Below, one piece after another: positions 24,327 through 35,059 of a stretch of DNA of 64,000 nt (positions within the stretch are counted from its first letter, which is position 1; the number at the start of each line of letters is the position of its first letter). Made by a program: the position numbers and the translations under genes. The DNA comes from Rhodocyclales bacterium. Its GTDB lineage: Bacteria; Pseudomonadota; Gammaproteobacteria; Burkholderiales; Rhodocyclaceae. The stretch spans positions 16,080 to 80,079 of the forward strand of contig JACRIX010000053.1 in NCBI GenBank assembly GCA_016215645.1, in the 5' to 3' direction. The notes under the pieces are model-generated. The model was not told the origin of the DNA. It saw nothing but the letters and a program-made list of their open reading frames with translations, and searched no databases.

Positions 24327-26360
24327 TTGGTCCAGCAACCGCTGACTGCTTCCTTCCGCGCCGGCGAGACTGGCAAGGTGGTGAGCGCACGCGAGGCCGT
24401 ACAGTTGATTCGCGACGGCGACACGGTGGCCACCAGCGGCTTTGTCGGCATCGGCTTCGCCGAGAACATCGCGGTTGCGCTTGAGGCACTGTTTCTCGAT
24501 GGCGAAGCCGCCGAACCGCAAAGCCTGGGCCGGCCGCGCAACCTGACGCTGGTGTATGCCGCCGGCCAGGGCGACGGCGGCGCGCGCGGCCTCAATCACC
24601 TGGGCCACGACGGACTGGTCAGCCGCGTCATCGGTGGCCACTGGGGCCTGGTGCCAAAGCTGCAGCAACTCGCGGTGGCCAATCGGATCGAGGCCTGGAA
24701 CCTGCCGCAGGGCGTGATCTGCCACTTGTTCCGCGACATCGCCGCGGGCAAGCCGGGAACCCTGACACGCATCGGCCTGGGCACTTTCGTCGACCCGCGC
24801 CATGGCGGCGGCAAGCTCAACGAGAAGACCCTCGCCTGCGCCACCGAACTGGTGCGCGTGATGGAAATCGACGGCGAGGAATACCTCTTCTACAAGGCCT
24901 TCCCGATCAATGTCGGCATCATCCGCGGCACCACGGCCGACCCCGACGGCAACATCAGCATGGAAAGGGAAGCGCTGACCCTGGAGGCGCAGGCGATCGC
25001 CATGGCCGCGCACAATTCCGGTGGCATCGTCATCGCGCAGGTCGAGCGCATCGCCGAACGCAATTCATTGAACCCGCGCCAGGTCAAGATTCCCGGCGTG
25101 CTGGTGGATTGCGTGGTGGTGGCGGAAAAGCCCGAGTACCACATGCAGACCTTCATCGAGCCCTACAGTCCGGCTTTCGCCGGCGAAATCCGGGTACCGA
25201 TGTCCGCCTCGTTTGGCAACGGCGCGCCGATGGCGCTCGACGCGCGCAAGATCATCGCCCGCCGCGCCGCGATGGAGCTCGCCGCCAACGACGTGGTTAA
25301 CCTCGGCATCGGCATGCCGGAAGGCATCGCCGCGGTTGCCGCGGAAGAGATGATATTGGATCTGATCACCCTCACCGCCGAACCCGGCGTAATCGGCGGC
25401 CTGCCCGCCGGCGGCCTCAACTTCGGCGCCGCCACCAACACCCAGGCCATTCTCGACCAGCCCAGCCAGTTCGATTTCTACGATGGCGGCGGGCTCGACA
25501 TTGCCTTCCTCGGGCTGGCCCAGGCCGATCGCGAGGGCAACCTCAACGTCTCCCGCTTCGGCCCCAAGCTGGCCGGCGCCGGCGGCTTCATCAACATCAG
25601 CCAGAGTGCCGGCAAGGTGGTATTCGTCGGCACCTTCACTGCCGGCGCGATGGAGATCGAACTGGCTGCCGGCGGCGTGAAAATCCTCGCCGACGGCAAG
25701 GCCAGGAAGTTCGTGGCCCAGGTCGAGCACCGCACCTTCAGCGGCCCGGTCGCGGCACGGAGCGGCAGGACCGTGCTCTACATCACCGAGCGCTGCGTGT
25801 TCCGCCTTTGTGCCGAGGGCCTGGAACTGATTGAGATCGCGCCCGGGGTCGACCTGCGCCGCGACATCCTCGATCGCATGGAGTTCGCTCCCGTCCTGCG
25901 GCATCCGCCAGCCCTGATGGATGCCCGCCTGTTCATGCCGGAACCGATGGGCCTGCGTTCGCAACTGCTGGAGCGGCCGCTTGAACAACGCCTGAGCTAC
26001 GACCCGGAGCAGAACCTCTTCTTCGTCGATTTCGAAGGGTTGTCGGTGCGCCGCGCGGAGGACATCGACCGCATCCTGCATGCGGTCGAGGCGCGCCTGG
26101 CGCCAATCGGACACAAGGTCGCGGCGGTGGTCAATTACGAGCGCTTCAGCATCGCGCCGGAACTGCTCGACGACTACACCGGCATGGTCAAAGGACTCAT
26201 GGAACGCCACTACAGCGACGTGACACGCTATACCGCGAGCACCTTCCTGCGCGCCCGGCTGGGCGAATCCTTCGGCAAGCGGGTCGCCGATCCGCACATC
26301 TTCGAAACCCGCGACGAAGCGCAGCGACACCTGCGGCTCGGGACCCGCGCCGCGCCATGA
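24327..26360 (+). CDS. Acyl-CoA:acetate/3-ketoacid (family I) CoA-transferase, TTG start
   Basis: [36 protein letters not shown] ... [17 protein letters not shown] ... [23 protein letters not shown] gaggag then TTG. Confidence 0.9.
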
Positions 26361-26410: not shown

Positions 26411-27142
26411 TCAAGGCATGCGCCGCGCGTCGCTGCGCAACATGCGTGTCAGGTTCTGGCGCACGTAGCCGATGTGATTGGTCGCCGCCGCCAGCGCCTG
26501 CCCCGCATCGCCCTGCTCGATGGCCCGCCAGACCGCCCGATGCTGGTCGAGCAGTGCGTCCCGCGCGGCGGGCACCTGCATCAGTTCGCTCAGGTTGCGC
26601 CGCAAGTTGTCGCGCATCAGGCGCAACAGGCTCGCCGTCAGATGGCCGACGATCACGTTATGCGAGGCCTCGGCGATGGCCTGGTGAAACGCCAGGTCCG
26701 TATCCACCTGAAGGTCCAGATCCTGCCCGCCGAAGGACTCCTCGAGCAAATTCAGGCAATGGCGCACCCGCTCGCGATCCGCCGCCGTCGCACGCAATGC
26801 CGCGCATTCGGCGGCGCGGGCTTCCAGCATGTGGCGGAATTCGAGCATGTCCTCATGCACCCCCGGGTGGTCGCGCAAGATGGCTTCCCAGGGATTGCCA
26901 AAACTGGAATCCAGCCGGTCGGTGACGAAAGTACCGCCACCCTGGCGGCTTTCCAGCATGCCGCGTGCCGCCAGTTTGTGGATGGCCTCGCGCAGGGACG
27001 CGCGGGACACTCCCAGTTGCACCGAAAGATCGCGTTCCGACGGCAGGCGATCGCCCGGTTTCAGACTCCCTTCGAGCACCCGCTGTTCGATCTCGCGGGC
27101 AACGACGTCAGCCAATCGCGGAGCGGTCATTTTTGTATCCAT
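26411..27142 (-). CDS. FadR-subfamily GntR transcriptional regulator (PdhR/LldR-like)
   Basis: LADVVAREIEQRVLEGSLKPGDRLPSERDLSVQLGVSRASLREAIHKLAARGMLESRQGGGTFV plus FCD domain. Confidence 0.92.
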   Translation of the reverse strand: MDTKMTAPRLADVVAREIEQRVLEGSLKPGDRLPSERDLSVQLGVSRASLREAIHKLAARGMLESRQGGGTFVTDRLDSSFGNPWEAILRDHPGVHEDMLEFRHMLEARAAECAALRATAADRERVRHCLNLLEESFGGQDLDLQVDTDLAFHQAIAEASHNVIVGHLTASLLRLMRDNLRRNLSELMQVPAARDALLDQHRAVWRAIEQGDAGQALAAATNHIGYVRQNLTRMLRSDARRMP

Positions 27143-27158
27143 CGGCAAAATATAACAC

Positions 27159-27169
27159 TGGTCTGACCA
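27159..27169. promoter_or_regulatory. Candidate GntR/FadR-type operator 1
   Basis: TGGTCTGACCA, perfect TGGT-N3-ACCA dyad directly upstream of the regulator start. Confidence 0.65.
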
Positions 27170-27215
27170 CAATATCAATAGATGATCTTTCCATGCACGG
27201 AATACCTCAAAAGGC

Positions 27216-27244
27216 TTGACAGAGCAGATCTTGACCGATAACAT
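27216..27244 (+). promoter_or_regulatory. Candidate sigma-70 promoter for TRAP operon
   Basis: TTGACA-N17-TAACAT. Confidence 0.5.
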
Positions 27245-27254
27245 TTCAAGAATA

Positions 27255-27265
27255 TGGTCTGACCA
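27255..27265. promoter_or_regulatory. Candidate GntR/FadR-type operator 2
   Basis: Second identical TGGTCTGACCA, just downstream of the -10 element on the TRAP side. Confidence 0.65.
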
Positions 27266-27351
27266 TTGATCCAATTTGACAGAAACGCATGCGGAGCGCT
27301 TGCGCAATCCGGGCATAAGACCCGAGTGTCGCGGCAACCAAGGAGAAACTC

Positions 27352-27474
27352 TTGAAGCAAAGACTTTTTCAAGTTCAAGCTCGGGCTAAGATATGCCGCC
27401 CCTTACGCTATGGCCTGACTAGCGGCTTGCTTGTCGGATTTGCCCGCGTACCCACCCTGGAGGTCTGCGCATGA
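27352..27474 (+). CDS. Possible 40-aa leader ORF upstream of and coupled to dctQ
   Basis: AGGAG then TTG start; MKQRLFQVQARAKICRPLRYGLTSGLLVGFARVPTLEVCA*; stop overlaps dctQ ATG (ATGA). Confidence 0.25.
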   Translation: MKQRLFQVQARAKICRPLRYGLTSGLLVGFARVPTLEVCA

Positions 27475-28127
27475 ACGCCATGCTGAAGATGTCGCAACTG
27501 ATCGATGGACTGAACGAACGGGTGGGCCGCAGCCTGATGTGGCTGGTGCTCTTCGCCGTGGTCATTTCGGCGGTCAATGCCGTGGTGCGCAAGGCCTTCG
27601 ACATGAGTTCGAATGCCTTCCTCGAAATCCAGTGGTACCTGTTCGCCGCCGTGGTCATGCTCGGTTCCGCCTACACCATGCTGCGCCAGGGACACGTCAA
27701 GATCGACGTCATCGTCGGTCGTTTCTCCAAACGCACCCAGCTCATCGTCGAGTGCCTGGGCATCGTATTTTTCCTCTTTCCTTTCGTTTACAAGGTCAAC
27801 GAACTGGTCTGGCCGCTGGTGATCCAGGCTTATCACAGCGGCGAAATGTCACAGAATGCCGGCGGCCTGATCCGCTGGCCGGTGTATGCACTGGTACCCG
27901 CCGGCTTCATCCTGCTCGGCCTGCAGGGCCTCTCGGAATTGATCAAGCGCGTCGGCTTCCTCATGGGGCTGGCGGTCGATCCCACGCTACCGGTGCAGAC
28001 CAAGACAGCCGAAGAGGAACTGGCCGAGGAAATCCTCAAACATCAAGTCGCCCCCGAAGTGGTCAATCGCGTCGAGGATTCGCTCGACATGCACAAGGAT
28101 CAGAACAAGACCGGGAGCGCGAAATGA
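27471..28127 (+). CDS. dctQ: TRAP transporter small permease subunit (DctQ family)
   Basis: Four TM helices; VVSAVNAVVRKAFDMSSNAFLEIQWYLFAAVVMLGSAYTMLRQGHVKIDVI. Confidence 0.92.
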   Translation: MNAMLKMSQLIDGLNERVGRSLMWLVLFAVVISAVNAVVRKAFDMSSNAFLEIQWYLFAAVVMLGSAYTMLRQGHVKIDVIVGRFSKRTQLIVECLGIVFFLFPFVYKVNELVWPLVIQAYHSGEMSQNAGGLIRWPVYALVPAGFILLGLQGLSELIKRVGFLMGLAVDPTLPVQTKTAEEELAEEILKHQVAPEVVNRVEDSLDMHKDQNKTGSAK

Positions 28128-29875
28128 TCGAAATCCTCCAGCACAACATGGCGCCGATCATGTTCGGCGGCCTGATCATCTTTCTGCTGATGGGCTATTC
28201 GGTGGCCTTCTCGCTGGCCGCCTGCGGCCTGTTCTTCGGCTGGCTCGGCGTCGAACTCGGCCTGCTGCCGCACTCTCTGCTGCAAGCACTGCCGCTGCGC
28301 ATCTTCGGCATCATCCAGAACGACACCCTGCTGGCGATCCCCTTCTTCACCTTCATGGGCCTGATCCTCGAGCGATCGGGCATGGCCGAGGACCTGCTCG
28401 ACACCATCGGCCAGTTGTTCGGTCCGATCCGCGGCGGCCTCGCCTACGCGGTCATCTTCGTCGGCGCGATGCTGGCCGCCACCACCGGCGTGGTCGCCGC
28501 CTCGGTGATCTCGATGGGGCTGATTTCGCTGCCTATCATGCTGCGTTACGGCTACGACCGCCGCATCGCTTCGGGCGTGATCGCCGCTTCGGGTACCCTG
28601 GCGCAAATCATTCCGCCCTCACTGGTACTGATCGTGATCGCCGACCAACTCGGGCGCAGCGTCGGCGACCTGTACGCCGGCGCTTTCATCCCCGGTTTCA
28701 TCCTCACCGGACTCTATGTTGTCTGGGTTTTCATCATCAGCATGGTCAAGCCTGCCTACGTGCCGGCACTGCCGCTCGAAGCGCGCACCATCCGCGAGGA
28801 CAACGGCAGCGCCGGCCTGCCTTCGGTACTGGCCCTGGTCGTGCTATCTGCGGGTGCCGCGATCGCCTTTGCCAAGACGCGGCCGGCGGAAACGCCAACC
28901 GACGAACTGATCGTGGTCGCGATGTGCGTCGGCGTCGGCGTGGCCTTTGTGCTGGCGGTGCTGAATCGCGTCACCAAAATGGGCCTGCTCTCGCGCATGG
29001 CCGAACGCGTCACCTTTGTCCTGATCCCGCCGCTGGCCCTGATCTTCCTCGTGCTCGGCACCATCTTCCTCGGCATCGCGACGCCGACCGAGGGCGGCGC
29101 CATGGGCGCGGTCGGCGCGCTGATCATGGCGGTGTCGCGCCGCCGCCTCAGCGCCAGCCTGATGAAGCAGGCGATGGATGCGACCATGAAGCTGTCCTGC
29201 TTCGTCGTCTTCATCCTGCTCGGCGCTACGGTATTCAGCCTGACCTTCCAGGCCGTCGATGGCTCGGTCTGGGTCGAACACCTGCTGACCGGCCTGCCCG
29301 GCGGACAGGTCGGCTTCCTCATCGTGGTGAACCTGCTGGTCTTCTTCCTTGCCTTCTTCCTCGACTTCTTCGAGCTGGCCTTCATCGTCGTCCCGTTGCT
29401 CGGACCGGTCGCGGATAAGCTCGGTATCGACCTGGTCTGGTTCGGCGTCCTGTTGGCGGTGAACATGCAGACCTCGTTCATGCACCCGCCCTTCGGCTTT
29501 GCCCTGTTCTACCTGCGCAGCGTGGCGCCGCACAGCGAGTACATCGACCGCCTGACCCAGAAGAAGATCGCGCCGGTCACCACCACCCAGATCTACTGGG
29601 GTGCGGTGCCCTTCGTCGTCATCCAGGTCCTCATGGTCGGTTTGCTGATCGCCTTCCCTGGCCTGGTCACCACGCCCGATACGGCGGCCAAGGTCGATCC
29701 TGCGAGCATTCAGCTCGAAGCACCGCCTGCGGCAGACCTGGAATCGGCCATCGCCGACCAGGACAAGGAAAAAGCCGGGCAGGACGACGCGGACGGCAAG
29801 GAAGAATCGGAGCCCGAAGAAGAAGCAGATGACGCCGCCAAGGCGCTGGAGCAATCGATCAGCAAAGGAAAGTAG
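28124..29875 (+). CDS. dctM: TRAP transporter large permease subunit (DctM family) with acidic C-terminal tail
   Basis: MIEILQHNMAPIMFGGLIIFLLMGYSVAFSLA ... FTFMGLILERSGMAEDLLD ... SGTLAQIIPPSLVLIVIADQLGRSVGDLYAGAFIPG; ATGA overlap with dctQ. Confidence 0.95.
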   Translation: MIEILQHNMAPIMFGGLIIFLLMGYSVAFSLAACGLFFGWLGVELGLLPHSLLQALPLRIFGIIQNDTLLAIPFFTFMGLILERSGMAEDLLDTIGQLFGPIRGGLAYAVIFVGAMLAATTGVVAASVISMGLISLPIMLRYGYDRRIASGVIAASGTLAQIIPPSLVLIVIADQLGRSVGDLYAGAFIPGFILTGLYVVWVFIISMVKPAYVPALPLEARTIREDNGSAGLPSVLALVVLSAGAAIAFAKTRPAETPTDELIVVAMCVGVGVAFVLAVLNRVTKMGLLSRMAERVTFVLIPPLALIFLVLGTIFLGIATPTEGGAMGAVGALIMAVSRRRLSASLMKQAMDATMKLSCFVVFILLGATVFSLTFQAVDGSVWVEHLLTGLPGGQVGFLIVVNLLVFFLAFFLDFFELAFIVVPLLGPVADKLGIDLVWFGVLLAVNMQTSFMHPPFGFALFYLRSVAPHSEYIDRLTQKKIAPVTTTQIYWGAVPFVVIQVLMVGLLIAFPGLVTTPDTAAKVDPASIQLEAPPAADLESAIADQDKEKAGQDDADGKEESEPEEEADDAAKALEQSISKGK

Positions 29876-29951
29876 CAGCGTGGTGTAGTATCCGGCGGCG
29901 GACCAGTCCGGCCCAGTCGTCATGTATGAACAACATCGAGGAGATTCATAA

Positions 29952-31073
29952 ATGGAACGTCGCAAATTTTTGCAAAACGCCGCCGGCACTGGATTGGCCG
30001 GCATCTTGGCTGCCGGTGTCGCGCCGGCAGTTCATGCCCAGGCCCCGGCCATCCGCTGGCGCCTGGCTTCAAGCTTCCCGAAGGCGCTCGATACAATTTA
30101 CGGTGCGGCCGAAACCTTCTCGAAAGCAGTTTCCGAAGGCACCGGCGGCAAGTTCACGATTTCGGTCCATGCCGGCGGCGAGCTGATGCCCCCCTTCGGC
30201 GTGGTGGATGGCGTGCAGCAGGGTACGGTTGAATGTGCCCACACCGCCCCCTACTACTTCTTCGGCAAGGACGATACCTTCGCCATCGACTGCGCGATTC
30301 CCTTCGGCCTCAACAGCCGCCAGATGACCGCCTGGATGTACGAAGGCAACGGCTTGAAGCTGTTGCGCGAGTTCTATGCCGGCTACAACATCGTGAACTT
30401 TCCGATGGGCAACACCGGCGCCCAGATGGGCGGCTGGTACCGCAAGGAAATCAAGAGCGTGGCCGACATCAAGGGCCTCAAGATGCGTATCGGCGGCTTC
30501 GGCGGCAAAGTGCTGTCGGCCATCGGCGGCGTGCCGCAGAACATCCCCGGCGGCGAGATCTACCAGGCGCTGGAAAAAGGCACCATCGACGCCACCGAAT
30601 GGGTCGGGCCCTATGATGACGAGAAGCTCGGTTTCGTCAAGGTTGCCAAGCACTACTATTATCCGGGCTGGTGGGAAGGTGGTCCGCAGCTCTCTCTCTA
30701 CGTCAATCAGAAGGCCTACGACGCGCTGCCGGCCGACTACAAGGCCATTCTTGCCTCTGCGGCCTCCCACGCCCACGTCGTCATGCAAGCCAAGTACGAC
30801 GCCAAGAACCCGGCGGCGTTGAAGCGCCTGGTCGCCGCCGGCGCCAAGCTCCACCAGTTCGACAAGAGCATCCTCAAGGCCGCGCACGACGCAGCGATGT
30901 CGCTGTATTCCGACCTTTCGGCCAAGAACCCGGCCTGGAAAAAGGTGTACAGCGACTACGCCGCCTTCCGCGACGAGCAGCACCTGTGGTTCCGCTTCGC
31001 CGAAGCCGGCTTCGACAACTTCATGCAGACCGGTCGCAGCGCCGCTGCCAAGGCCGCGCCGAAGAAGAAGTAA
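29952..31073 (+). CDS. dctP: TRAP transporter substrate-binding protein, TakP-like (2-oxoacid type)
   Basis: MERRKFLQNAAGTGLAGILAAGVAPAVHAQ; IRWRLASSFPKALDTIYGAAETFSKAVSE ... WVGPYDDEKLGFVKVAKHYYYPGWWEGG. Confidence 0.92.
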   Translation: MERRKFLQNAAGTGLAGILAAGVAPAVHAQAPAIRWRLASSFPKALDTIYGAAETFSKAVSEGTGGKFTISVHAGGELMPPFGVVDGVQQGTVECAHTAPYYFFGKDDTFAIDCAIPFGLNSRQMTAWMYEGNGLKLLREFYAGYNIVNFPMGNTGAQMGGWYRKEIKSVADIKGLKMRIGGFGGKVLSAIGGVPQNIPGGEIYQALEKGTIDATEWVGPYDDEKLGFVKVAKHYYYPGWWEGGPQLSLYVNQKAYDALPADYKAILASAASHAHVVMQAKYDAKNPAALKRLVAAGAKLHQFDKSILKAAHDAAMSLYSDLSAKNPAWKKVYSDYAAFRDEQHLWFRFAEAGFDNFMQTGRSAAAKAAPKKK

Positions 31074-31230: not shown

Positions 31231-32691
31231 ATGTCCCGGCACCCTCTGATTGCATCCCTGCATGGCGGCGATACCGGCAAGTTGATGACGACCCGGCGGG
31301 CAGTGCAACTGATTCGCGACATCGCCGCAGGCAAACCCGGAACGCTGACCCAACTAGGGCTCGGCACCTTCGTCGATCCACGCCACGGCGGATTCCGAGG
31401 GCAACATTTCGATGGACCGTGAGGCGCTGACCCTCGAAGCACAGGCGATCGCCATGGCCGCCCACACTTCGGGTGGCATCGACATCGCCCAGGTCGAGCG
31501 CAACACCCGTAGTCTCAACAGCGCCGCCTTTTCCAGCGAAATCCGGGTGCCGATCTCGGCCGTGGCGCCAATGGCGCTGGACGAACGCAAGATCATCGCC
31601 CTCCGCGCGGCGATGGAACTCGCCGCCAATGGCGTGGTTAAGCTCGGGATCGGCATGCCGGAAGGCATCGCGAATGTCGCCACCGAAGGAAAGATCATCG
31701 ACCTCATCACGCCCACCACCGAACCCGGCGTGATCGGCGGCGTACCGGCCGGCGGGCTCAATTTCGGCGCGGCGATCAACACCCCGGCCATCGTCGACCA
31801 GCCCAGCCAGTTCGATTTCTACGACGGTGGCGGACTCGACATCGCCTTTCTGGGGCTTGCCCAGGCCAATCGCGAGGGCAATCTCAATGTCTCGAAGTTT
31901 GGTCCCAAGCTCGCCGGTGCCGGTGGCTTCGTCAACATCAGCCAGAGCGCGAAAAAAGTGGCTTTCGTCGGCACATTTACCGCCGGCAATCTTGAGATGG
32001 CACTGGAGAACGGCGCGTTGAAGCTACTCGCCGACAGCTAGGCGATGAAGTTCGTGAACGAGGTCGAACGCCGCAGCTTCAGCGGCACGGTTGCCGCCGC
32101 GTCGGGCAAGACCGTGCTCTACGTCACCGAACGCTGCGTCTTCCGCCTTTGCACCGAGGGTCTGGCGCTGATCGAGATCGCGCCGGGCGTTGACCTGCAA
32201 CGCGAAATTCTGGATCGCATGGAATTCGTGCCGGTCATGCACCAGCCGCCCGCATTGATGGACCCCCCATCTTCGGCCGTGATTCCATGGGCCTGCGACC
32301 GGAATTGCTTGAGGTGCCGCTGGAGCAGCGCCTGGGTTACGACGCCGGGCAAAACGTGTTCTTCGTAAACTTCGAGGGTCTGTCGGTGCGCAGCCGCCTG
32401 GACATCGAGCGCATTCTTGCGGCGGTGGAATCACGCCTGGCCCCCATCGGCCACAAGGTGGCGGCGATCGTCAACTACGACCGCTTCAGTATCGCGCCGG
32501 AGCTGATCGACGCCTACACGGCAATGGTCAAGGGCATCATGGACCGGCACTACACCAATGTGACGCGCTACACCTCACGCACCTTCCTCAGGGTCAGGCT
32601 GGGGGAATCTTTCGGCAAGCGCGTCGCCGATCCTCACATCTTCGGCAATCACAGCGAGGCGCAACGACACCTGAACTCCGGACCCGCCTAA
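31231..32691 (+). pseudogene. Decayed paralog of the 24327-26360 CoA-transferase
   Basis: Three ORF fragments (31412-32041, 32045-32368, 32287-32691, plus 31231-31422) line up in order with the intact protein; internal deletions, in-frame TAG at 32039, frameshift near CCCCCC at ~32264. Confidence 0.93.
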
Positions 32692-35015
32692 GCGCGGCTC
32701 TGGATTTCCTCGATGAAACCCTGCATGCCGGTGGCAATGTTGCCGGCATTGCCTTCGTCGGTATCGATGTGCATGGCGAGCCGGAAATTCGGATTCACCC
32801 GCACCACGACGTCGCCGTAAGTCACTTCGCGCTCGCCCTCGATGCGTACGCGAACGACATAGCGATCGCGCAGTCGCAGCCGCATGGCGTCCTCGGGCGA
32901 CATATGGATGTGGCGCTGGGCGCAAATCACGCCGCGCTCGAGCTGGACACTGCCGGCGGGGCCTTCAAGGCGGACGCCCGGCGTGTTGGCCAGATCGCCC
33001 GATTCGCGGATCGGCGGTTGCACACCGAGCTTGAACTGCTCGGTCATGGCGATTTCGACCTGGCTTTCCTTGCGCGTCGGGCCCAGCACGCGAACATTGG
33101 CGATGCGGCCCTTGGGGCCGACCAGATCCACCTTCTCCGCACACGCAAACTGGCCCGGCTGCGAAAGTTCGTGTTCGGGAGTCAGTTGATGGCCGGCACC
33201 GAACAGCTTGTCGACATCGGCCTGGGCCAGATGCACATGATGCGCCGAGACCTCGATCGGGATCGGTGACGCCGCCTCGTCGCGAATCGCCAGGGTGATC
33301 TGATTGCGCTCGATGGCGCGCAATGCCTCCCATGCCAGCAAACGTTCGTCATTATTGGCGACGACGATGATGGTGACCGGCGAATCGTCGGCCGAGATGA
33401 CAGCATAATCCTGCACCGCGCCGAGGTTGCGGTTCTTTTCCTCGTCGAGCTTGATGCCCATGTAGGCCAGACCCTGGCAGGCCAGGCTGCGCACCGAAGG
33501 GCTGGTCTCGCCAATATCCCCGGTGAATGCCAGCACGCTGACGCCGCCCATCGCCGCGACGTAGGCGCCGATGTTCTTGCGGATCTGGTAACAGAAGGCC
33601 TTGTGCGCCAGCAAGGCGCGATGGTGGCCTTCCGCGGCAGCGGCTTCGATCTCGTGGATATCGCTGGAGATGCCGGAAATGCCTTTGAGCCCGCTCTCCG
33701 AATTGATGAGCTTGTTGAGTTCGTCCGGCCCCAGCCTGTAACGCTCCATGAGCTGGATCATGATCGCCGGGTCAAGGCTGCCCGATCGGCTGGGCATGAT
33801 GAGTCCATCGGAAGGCGTCATGCCCATCGTGGTATCGACCGAACGACCGTGGTCGATGGCGCAGATCGATGCGCCGACACCCAGATGACAGGAAATGATT
33901 TCCAGCTCGCCGAGCGGACGCTTGACCATCTCGGCCGCCTTGAGCGACACGTAGCGGTGCGAGGTGCCATGGAAGCCGTAGCGGCGGATGCCTTCCTTCT
34001 TGTACCACTCGTAGGGCAGGCCGTAGAGGTAGGCATAGGTCGGCAGCGTCTGGTGGAAGGCGGTGTCGAACACGGCGACATGAGGCACGCCGGGGAAGTA
34101 CTTCATCGCCTCGCGCATGCCTTCCAGGTTGTGCGGGTTGTGCAAGGGCGCCAGCGAAGACAGGGCCTCGATGTCGGCCAGCACCTGCGGTGTGATTACT
34201 GTGGCACTGGAGAACTTGCTGCCGCCATGCACCACGCGATGCCCTACCGCAATGACATCCAGCGGGGTGAACAGAAAGCGATTGTCGAGGTCGAGCATGG
34301 ACTCGAACAGGACGTTGAAGAACTCGTTGACGGCGAAGGACGGCCGCTCGCGGCGCGTCGTCTGGCCCGCCGCCGTCATCGTGATGTGCACGGTCTCGCA
34401 ATCGGCGCAATCGACCACGCCATGCACATCCAGCCCCTCGTCGTGGGTATCGTAGATGCCGAAACGGATCTGGCTCAAGCCGGCGTTGATCGACAGGATC
34501 TTGCCGTGCACTTCCTTCTTCAGGCTCAGTGCATAGGGATCGTCGGACTGTGCCAGCGCGCGGGCGCGAAGCTGGCTGCTGGTGACGTCCACCGCCTGGG
34601 CGCGCGCACGGTCGGCGAGCAGCTTGGAGAGATACAGGATGGCCTTGGGATTCACCAGGATGTGGCTGCTGACCAGGTCCTGCGGAATCAGCATCACCAG
34701 ACAGCGATTGCCGGCAATCACGTCGGCCACCGTGCGATCGCCTGTCAGGACGGACATTTCGCCAAACACGTCGCCCACCTCCAGCGGACTCATGACGATG
34801 CGGCCGCCGGTGTTGTCGGCCACCGAAATCTCGCCGTGGCCGTCGATCAGCACACCGATGAAGCGGCCTTCGTCACCGCACTGGATGATGGATTCATTGC
34901 CTTCAAAGGTTCGCAGTTCGGATCCATCGACGATGGCCTCGATACCGGCTTGGCCGAAACTCTCGAACACGGGCACCTGTTTCAGCAGGAAGGGAATCAG
35001 TTCGTCACGGGTCAT
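32688..35015 (-). CDS. Fusion protein: cyclic-nucleotide-binding domain + acetate kinase + PduL-type phosphate acyltransferase (start at MTRDELIP or 35051)
   Basis: N-term CAP_ED (VGDVFGEMSVLTGDRTVADV); AckA core (VGHRVVHGG, AVFDTAFHQTLP, RRYGFHGTSHRYVS, SCHLGVGASICAI, GETSPSVR); C-term PduL (VSAHHVHLAQADVDKLFG, LSQPGQFAC, RVLGPTRKESQVEIA, AQRHIHMSPEDA, MHIDTDEGNA). Confidence 0.93.
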   Translation of the reverse strand: MTRDELIPFLLKQVPVFESFGQAGIEAIVDGSELRTFEGNESIIQCGDEGRFIGVLIDGHGEISVADNTGGRIVMSPLEVGDVFGEMSVLTGDRTVADVIAGNRCLVMLIPQDLVSSHILVNPKAILYLSKLLADRARAQAVDVTSSQLRARALAQSDDPYALSLKKEVHGKILSINAGLSQIRFGIYDTHDEGLDVHGVVDCADCETVHITMTAAGQTTRRERPSFAVNEFFNVLFESMLDLDNRFLFTPLDVIAVGHRVVHGGSKFSSATVITPQVLADIEALSSLAPLHNPHNLEGMREAMKYFPGVPHVAVFDTAFHQTLPTYAYLYGLPYEWYKKEGIRRYGFHGTSHRYVSLKAAEMVKRPLGELEIISCHLGVGASICAIDHGRSVDTTMGMTPSDGLIMPSRSGSLDPAIMIQLMERYRLGPDELNKLINSESGLKGISGISSDIHEIEAAAAEGHHRALLAHKAFCYQIRKNIGAYVAAMGGVSVLAFTGDIGETSPSVRSLACQGLAYMGIKLDEEKNRNLGAVQDYAVISADDSPVTIIVVANNDERLLAWEALRAIERNQITLAIRDEAASPIPIEVSAHHVHLAQADVDKLFGAGHQLTPEHELSQPGQFACAEKVDLVGPKGRIANVRVLGPTRKESQVEIAMTEQFKLGVQPPIRESGDLANTPGVRLEGPAGSVQLERGVICAQRHIHMSPEDAMRLRLRDRYVVRVRIEGEREVTYGDVVVRVNPNFRLAMHIDTDEGNAGNIATGMQGFIEEIQSRA

Positions 35016-35059
35016 GATGGGTTCTTGCGGGAAATCGAGAATACTTGGCAATGATTATA

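Follow-up and report, generated by a model that had tools for sequence, protein, structure and literature searches.

A Rhodocyclaceae protein joining a CNB-fold domain, an acetate-kinase-derived domain and PduL has kept its acyl-phosphate residues and replaced those of its ATP site

The closest described systems to the protein considered here are acetate kinases, the phosphotransacylase PduL and combinations of the two. Among the ATP-dependent acetate kinases (ACKs), Asn211 lies at the beta-phosphate of the nucleotide, Gly331 at the alpha- and beta-phosphates and Arg285 at the adenine (PMC4390882), and Gly331 is completely conserved (PMC5517563). Single changes at Asn211, Gly239 or Gly331 of the Methanosarcina thermophila enzyme (MtACK) lower its activity 6- to 200-fold (PMC4390882), and engineered mutants have failed to settle what decides between ATP and another phosphoryl partner in this family (PMC5517563). 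For PduL, the roles of the active-site residues have been laid out in an 18-residue list for the R. palustris enzyme, and PduL domains were seen in multidomain proteins annotated as Acks, for which channelling was suggested (PMC4784909). Here we describe a 787-codon open reading frame (ORF) in a 64,000-nucleotide stretch of Rhodocyclales bacterium DNA (assembly GCA_016215645.1, contig JACRIX010000053.1, positions 16,080 to 80,079; hereafter the window), in which a domain of the cyclic-nucleotide-binding (CNB) fold, an acetate-kinase-derived domain and a PduL domain follow one another in one chain. An earlier note, made from the DNA letters, had taken it for a single polypeptide that turns acyl-CoA into acetate and ATP, possibly gated by a cyclic nucleotide. 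What became of these assignments once the residues of all three domains were compared across relatives?

The frame lies exactly where the earlier note had placed it without naming a strand, namely on the minus strand (Table 1); the plus-strand reading of the same interval contains a stop. Because the alignments of most homologues begin only near residue 13, the actual start is likely the ATG at 35015-35013, which would give a protein of about 775 amino acids (aa). The domain search that the note had called for detects all three proposed domains above curated cut-offs, the N-terminal one in Pfam only (cNMP_binding, E 6e-11, 42.6 bits vs a cut-off of 27.5) and the other two in both Pfam and NCBIfam: Acetate_kinase (PF00871) at residues 184-573 with 425 bits and PTAC (PF06130, PduL) with E 9e-77, next to TIGR00016 ackA (415.2 bits vs 293.4) and NF011652 phosphate propanoyltransferase (261 vs 209). 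In phmmer searches the middle part matches acetate kinases, the C-terminus R. palustris PduL (5cuo) and the N-terminus CNB domains.

The two sides of the kinase-derived domain have fared very differently. When 87 Rhodocyclaceae fusions were aligned to the numbering of MtACK, the acyl-phosphate residues Arg91, His123, Asp148, Phe179, His180 and Arg241 proved invariant in all of them, as did Val93 and Pro232, whereas Ser10, Ser12, Lys14, Asn211, Gly239, Gly331 and Glu384 were each kept in none. In the PHOSPHATE1 loop Ser10 gave way to Leu, Ile, Val or His, Ser12 to Gln or Arg and Lys14 to His or Arg; further on, Asn211 became Ile or Val, Gly239 mostly Pro with some Ser, Ala or Thr, Gly331 Asp or Glu with a few Arg, Ala or Gln, and Glu384 Asp, Asn or His. 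Arg285 is mostly His (80/89), with Arg retained in seven fusions. By contrast, in 47 control kinases (three solved structures, AckA proteins from the same or related genomes, two-domain Ack-PduL fusions and a three-domain fusion from another pseudomonadotan class, here called the G349 fusion), Ser10, Gly239, Arg285, Gly331 and Glu384 are conserved wherever data exist, and the ATP-site residues are near-universal overall. Forty-seven columns are invariant in the controls; the fusions have lost 7 of the 15 that lie in ATP-site motifs but just 1 of the other 32 (Fisher p = 7e-4), an enrichment on which a chance scatter of replacements was rejected. Column entropy in the fusions is 0 bits at the acyl-phosphate residues and 0.3-1.6 bits at the altered ATP-site columns, which suggests that the latter are relaxed or re-purposed and not finely tuned. 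The catalytic positions that the earlier note had recognised thus hold for the acyl-phosphate half in 87/87 fusions, but not for the ATP half, replaced in 87/87 and intact in the controls; all of the motifs it had quoted are present, but PSRSGS and GETS contain or adjoin two abnormal residues, a Pro at the Gly239 position and, within FTGDIGETS, an Asp at the Gly331 position. By family score and acyl-phosphate residues the fusion matches the ATP-dependent acetate kinases, and by its nucleotide-site residues it does not.

When was the ATP site lost? In an IQ-TREE phylogeny of the kinase domain all sampled altered fusions form one clade (support 100/100) on a stem of 0.69 changes per site, and the G349 fusion is its sister (100/99). 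Since that sister has an ordinary ATP site, with Ser10, Ser12, Lys14, Asn211, Gly239, Arg285, Gly331 and Glu384 all canonical, the loss is placed on the Rhodocyclaceae stem, and most simply the three-domain protein would predate it. Within the altered clade the fusion is under purifying selection, with dN/dS values of 0.02-0.20 in each of the three domains (ten pairs; simple Nei-Gojobori estimates, some with high dS).

The PduL half, with the two zinc motifs that had been read from it, is supported: its metal ligands are intact in every fusion. Seventeen of the 18 active-site residues of R. palustris PduL are invariant in 87/87, the sole exception being Lys70, replaced by His; both zinc sites (His48, His50, Glu109; His157, His159, His204) and the phosphate-binding Arg103 and Ser127 are kept throughout. 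That this half is a working phosphotransacylase is supported by its residues.

The AlphaFold2 (AF2) model of the N-terminal domain, built for the domain alone, reaches a pLDDT of 82.5 and a pTM of 0.75, and Foldseek matches it with probability 1.00 to CRP and to regulatory subunits of PKA. Beyond the beta-roll the model ends in a long predicted helix (model residues 123-155) comparable to the dimerisation helix of CRP, which suggests that the domain may dimerise. In CRP and PKA, the Arg of the phosphate-binding cassette holds the cyclic phosphate. This Arg is absent in 87/87 fusions, which have Ile, Thr, Leu, Val, Ser or Met instead; the cassette Glu is absent in 57 and present in 30, and Asp stands in 86 where the cassette normally has Thr or Ser. 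The domain has the fold of its class without the Arg plus Glu signature, and a ligand of the cAMP or cGMP type is therefore unlikely, as is the gating by cAMP that had been envisaged. In some trypanosomatid PKA subunits this Arg has likewise been lost, and nucleosides are bound via Glu311 (PMC10959531). Nucleoside sensing of this kind was considered on account of the top Foldseek matches and a common Thr-Val, and was dropped with the Glu unmatched: the equivalent position (residue 100) is Ser in 83 fusions and Ala in four.

How might such a protein work? We favour, at a probability of roughly 45%, a working PduL joined to an acyl-phosphate module that derives from acetate kinase and is uncoupled from ATP, with a CNB-fold domain that would not respond to cAMP or cGMP. 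PduL would make or consume acetyl- or propionyl-phosphate (acyl-CoA + Pi <-> acyl-phosphate + CoA), which the kinase-derived domain would bind in its intact Arg/His/Asp pocket. The phosphoryl group would then pass to a non-nucleotide acceptor, most simply water, with Pi (giving PPi) as a sub-case, so that the net conversion would be of acyl-CoA to free acid and CoA without ATP, in parallel to the ordinary AckA and Pta of relatives' genomes. The N-terminal domain would probably dimerise, regulate or both, not acting as a cAMP/cGMP receptor. We infer the absence of ATP use, the identity of the acceptor, the direction and any regulation. Of the one-polypeptide route to acetate and ATP proposed earlier, the PduL residues are intact, but with the ATP side of the kinase replaced the mechanism becomes doubtful. 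It is somewhat more tentatively conceivable that a whole bacterial 'acetate kinase' family has abandoned ATP and, fused to PduL, interconverts acyl-CoA and free acid by way of acyl-phosphate, with Pi/PPi or water as the phosphoryl partner, and that it is controlled by a CNB domain sensing a signal other than a cyclic nucleotide.

Several points weigh against an ATP-uncoupled module. The moderate variability of the ATP-site columns fits a pocket free of selection equally with a re-tuned one, and low dN/dS is no proof of catalysis by the kinase domain. Most fusions retain Asn7 and Asp148 together with an acidic residue at 384, so Mg and a phosphoryl donor may yet be bound. Some control kinases carry Ser at position 211 (11 of 35), which makes this position a weak marker by itself. 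Because the MtACK single mutants lose activity yet retain ATP use (PMC4390882), the sequence by itself is compatible with ATP use at a reduced rate. Finally, the full-length AF2 model is poor (pLDDT 61, pTM 0.44), and we therefore make no claim about pocket geometry.

The alternative that survives best, unlikely though worth keeping in sight, is a pseudokinase: the kinase-derived domain would bind acyl-phosphate, or acetate or propionate, without turnover and serve PduL as an allosteric sensor or scaffold. Such a role would sit well with the alteration of all nucleotide-contact motifs, and the moderate constraint on them (0.3-1.6 bits), beside an acyl-phosphate pocket of zero entropy, and the fusion to a CNB fold suggests regulation; yet the full conservation of the catalytic His180, Arg241, Asp148 and Arg91 seemingly exceeds the needs of ligand binding, and Asn7 and the acidic residue at 384 point the same way. 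We consider it less probable still that the protein remains an ATP-forming acetate or propionate kinase, giving a one-polypeptide route from acyl-CoA to acid and ATP. The family match is strong, ATP use persists at lowered activity in the MtACK mutants changed at 211, 239 or 331, and the ATP site of the three-domain sister is normal, but eight nucleotide-side positions have changed together across the clade, among them Gly331, described as completely conserved in ATP-dependent ACKs (PMC5517563). Moreover, in the genus of the window ordinary AckA was found in 7 of 9 genomes searched and Pta/PTB-family matches in 9 of 9, the two genomes without an AckA match (that of the window included) being about 80% complete; because these enzymes coexist with it, the fusion is probably not the housekeeping enzyme.

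Within the preferred reading, a Pi/PPi-dependent kinase of the Entamoeba type (acyl-CoA + 2 Pi <-> acid + CoA + PPi) is an improbable special case. Asn211, Gly239 and Gly331 are also the positions changed in the PPi-using enzyme of Entamoeba histolytica (EhACK), to Thr, Ser and Gln (PMC4390882), Asp at 331 recurs in Anaerolineaceae ACKs suspected of PPi dependence (PMC5517563), and a proton-pumping PPase is present in 5 of 6 genomes searched of the window's genus, though not found in the 80%-complete genome of the window itself. In EhACK and those bacterial ACKs, however, PHOSPHATE2 is longer by one Gly and position 330 is Asp (PMC5517563). The fusions show neither feature; they also lack Ser10 and Ser12 of PHOSPHATE1, and the residues that they place close to the phosphate sites are hydrophobic or acidic; nor has any engineered change turned an ATP enzyme into a PPi user (PMC5517563). 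An artefact through a frame error or joined genes, the worry voiced in the earlier note, is refuted by independent genomes with the same protein (at least 80), and decay of the gene is ruled out by the low dN/dS in every domain and agrees poorly with the intact PduL active site and acyl-phosphate pocket, so that this pair of explanations, for which nothing was found beyond local pseudogenisation in the neighbouring CoA-transferase copy, has a negligible probability.

Table 1. Positions in the window of the fusion ORF, its domains and the residues compared
Feature	Position	Strand	Remarks
Whole ORF, 787 codons	32688..35051	minus	one uninterrupted frame; listed start TTG
N-terminal CNB/CAP_ED-fold domain, residues ~20-150	34602..34994	minus	Pfam cNMP_binding 47-125, AF2, Foldseek
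Degenerate phosphate-binding cassette FGEMSVLTGDRTVADVIA, residues 96-113	34713..34766	minus	Arg of PR(A)AT is Thr107; Asp110 for the usual Thr/Ser
Acetate-kinase-derived domain, residues 184-577	33321..34502	minus	PF00871 E 2e-127; 2iir E 2e-104
PHOSPHATE1 loop INAGLSQIR	34464..34490	minus	N189 = Asn7 kept; Ser10->L192, Ser12->Q194, Lys14->R196
Span of invariant R272 (R91), H304 (H123), D329 (D148), H361 (H180), R422 (R241)	33786..34238	minus	87/87
PHOSPHATE2 loop CHLGVGA	33870..33890	minus	Asn211 equivalent is Val392
LOOP3	33792..33794	minus	Gly239 equivalent is Pro420
LOOP4	33654..33656	minus	Arg285 equivalent is His466
ADENOSINE motif	33516..33518	minus	Gly331 equivalent is Asp512
Glu384 equivalent	33348..33350	minus	Asp568
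PduL (PTAC) phosphotransacylase domain, residues 598-771	32739..33260	minus	zinc ligands H605, H607, E666, H714, H716, H761

The architecture, whose phylogenetic distribution the earlier note had wanted charted, is widespread in Rhodocyclaceae. A genome-wide scan recovered the protein at no fewer than 80 loci, at 66-97% identity, nearly always full length and in genomes nearly all of Rhodocyclaceae/Rhodocyclales, the carriers including Sulfuritalea, Dechloromonas, Azonexus, Zoogloea, Thauera, Propionivibrio, Rhodocyclus, Parazoarcus and further Rhodocyclales. PduL was found in 54 of 220 Rhodocyclaceae genomes, and in 42 of these the open frame that contains it is 777 aa or longer. The order, sampled with 398 genomes, gave eight PduL matches, all in Rhodocyclaceae, and in the rest of the phylum PduL is rare (7/399 genomes, window included). 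Inside the window's genus the distribution is patchy, with the fusion in 10 of 31 genomes and one of these carrying an interrupted frame. There it is standalone, belongs to two-domain Ack-PduL proteins of 599-675 aa or, in a single case, forms part of the three-domain G349 fusion. In place of the fusion, certain Rhodocyclaceae have ack and pduL as separate neighbouring genes, and their ATP sites are canonical (L183-L186). Rhodocyclus purpureus DSM 168 has two three-domain fusions in tandem, four bases apart (L182:3528-8501); in each of them the ATP site is altered and Asn7 is replaced by Asp as well.

A search for a conserved operon context showed that neighbours differ between genera, with nothing in common beyond the closest relatives; these share a CoA-transferase gene convergent with the fusion and an upstream methyltransferase. 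In the window the convergent gene (31300-32691, plus strand) is a second copy of a CoA-transferase/acetyl-CoA hydrolase that has decayed, showing deletions and frame changes; its identity to the paralogue at 24327-26360, which is intact, is about 70-73%. In L006, a close relative, the copy found at this place is intact and likewise convergent with the fusion. Between the two copies, 26411-31073 encodes an FCD-type GntR regulator and TRAP-type carboxylate transporter genes (DctQ, DctP) and looks like an organic-acid uptake cluster. In a few relatives (L010:10364-12134; L012) the next gene downstream, on the same strand as the fusion, encodes a protein that by eye looks like CBS/PAS/GGDEF, of the diguanylate-cyclase type.

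What is the significance of these replacements? With a score well above the curated cut-off, annotation pipelines would name the fusion an acetate kinase, and metabolic models would credit an ATP-yielding route that the gene may not provide. The clade concerned contains genera that matter in wastewater treatment, namely Zoogloea, Azonexus, Dechloromonas and Thauera. The succession from canonical to altered fusion would also offer natural before-and-after pairs for the choice between ATP and other phosphoryl partners in acetate kinases.

Compared with the known systems, the class itself is not new: the earlier note knew AckA and PduL as separate proteins, but Ack-PduL fusions are already in print (PMC4784909), and several two-domain ones were found here (L118, L119, L122, L170, L172-L175). 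In these, as in the window protein, PduL comes after acetate kinase within a single chain; they differ in lacking the N-terminal CNB domain and in having a canonical ATP site. One of them (L118:46-3360) adjoins an ORF resembling the C-terminus of phosphoketolase, a pairing that suggests a route from sugar-phosphate to acetate with phosphoketolase supplying acetyl-phosphate. The open-access literature gave no account of a CNB-Ack-PduL protein or of an ACK clade with this set of replacements, and within it the third domain and the ATP-site loss appear new; nearest come some Anaerolineaceae ACKs with Asp331, whose phosphoryl partner is unknown (PMC5517563). With AckA/TIGR00016 (M. thermophila 1tuu, T. 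maritima 2iir) the fusion shares the fold family, the acyl-phosphate pocket and Asn7, Arg91, His123, Asp148, His180 and Arg241, but its PHOSPHATE1, PHOSPHATE2, LOOP3, LOOP4 and ADENOSINE residues are replaced. Like EhACK (4h0o), all fusions have a residue other than Gly at 331 (Asp, Glu, Arg, Ala or Gln), as judged from sequence, and are changed at 211 and 239, but to different residues; they also have Gly at 330 (87/87), CHLG[IV]G without an insertion and an altered PHOSPHATE1. All metal ligands, Arg103 and Ser127 are common to the fusion and standalone R. palustris PduL (5cuo/5cup), from which it differs by His for Lys70 and by the C-terminal fusion of PduL. CRP and the regulatory CNB domains of PKA, including the cAMP-independent trypanosomatid PKAR (6hyi, 6ftf), have the fold in common with it; PKAR likewise lacks the cassette Arg (Thr-Val in the window protein), but because its Glu311 is Ser or Ala in the fusions, a nucleoside-type ligand is not predicted for them. 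The G349 fusion (locus L190, 801 aa), their sister in the tree, has the same domain order and likewise lacks the cassette Arg (TGDKTCADVIA), but differs from the Rhodocyclaceae fusions in that all eight of its ATP-site residues are canonical.

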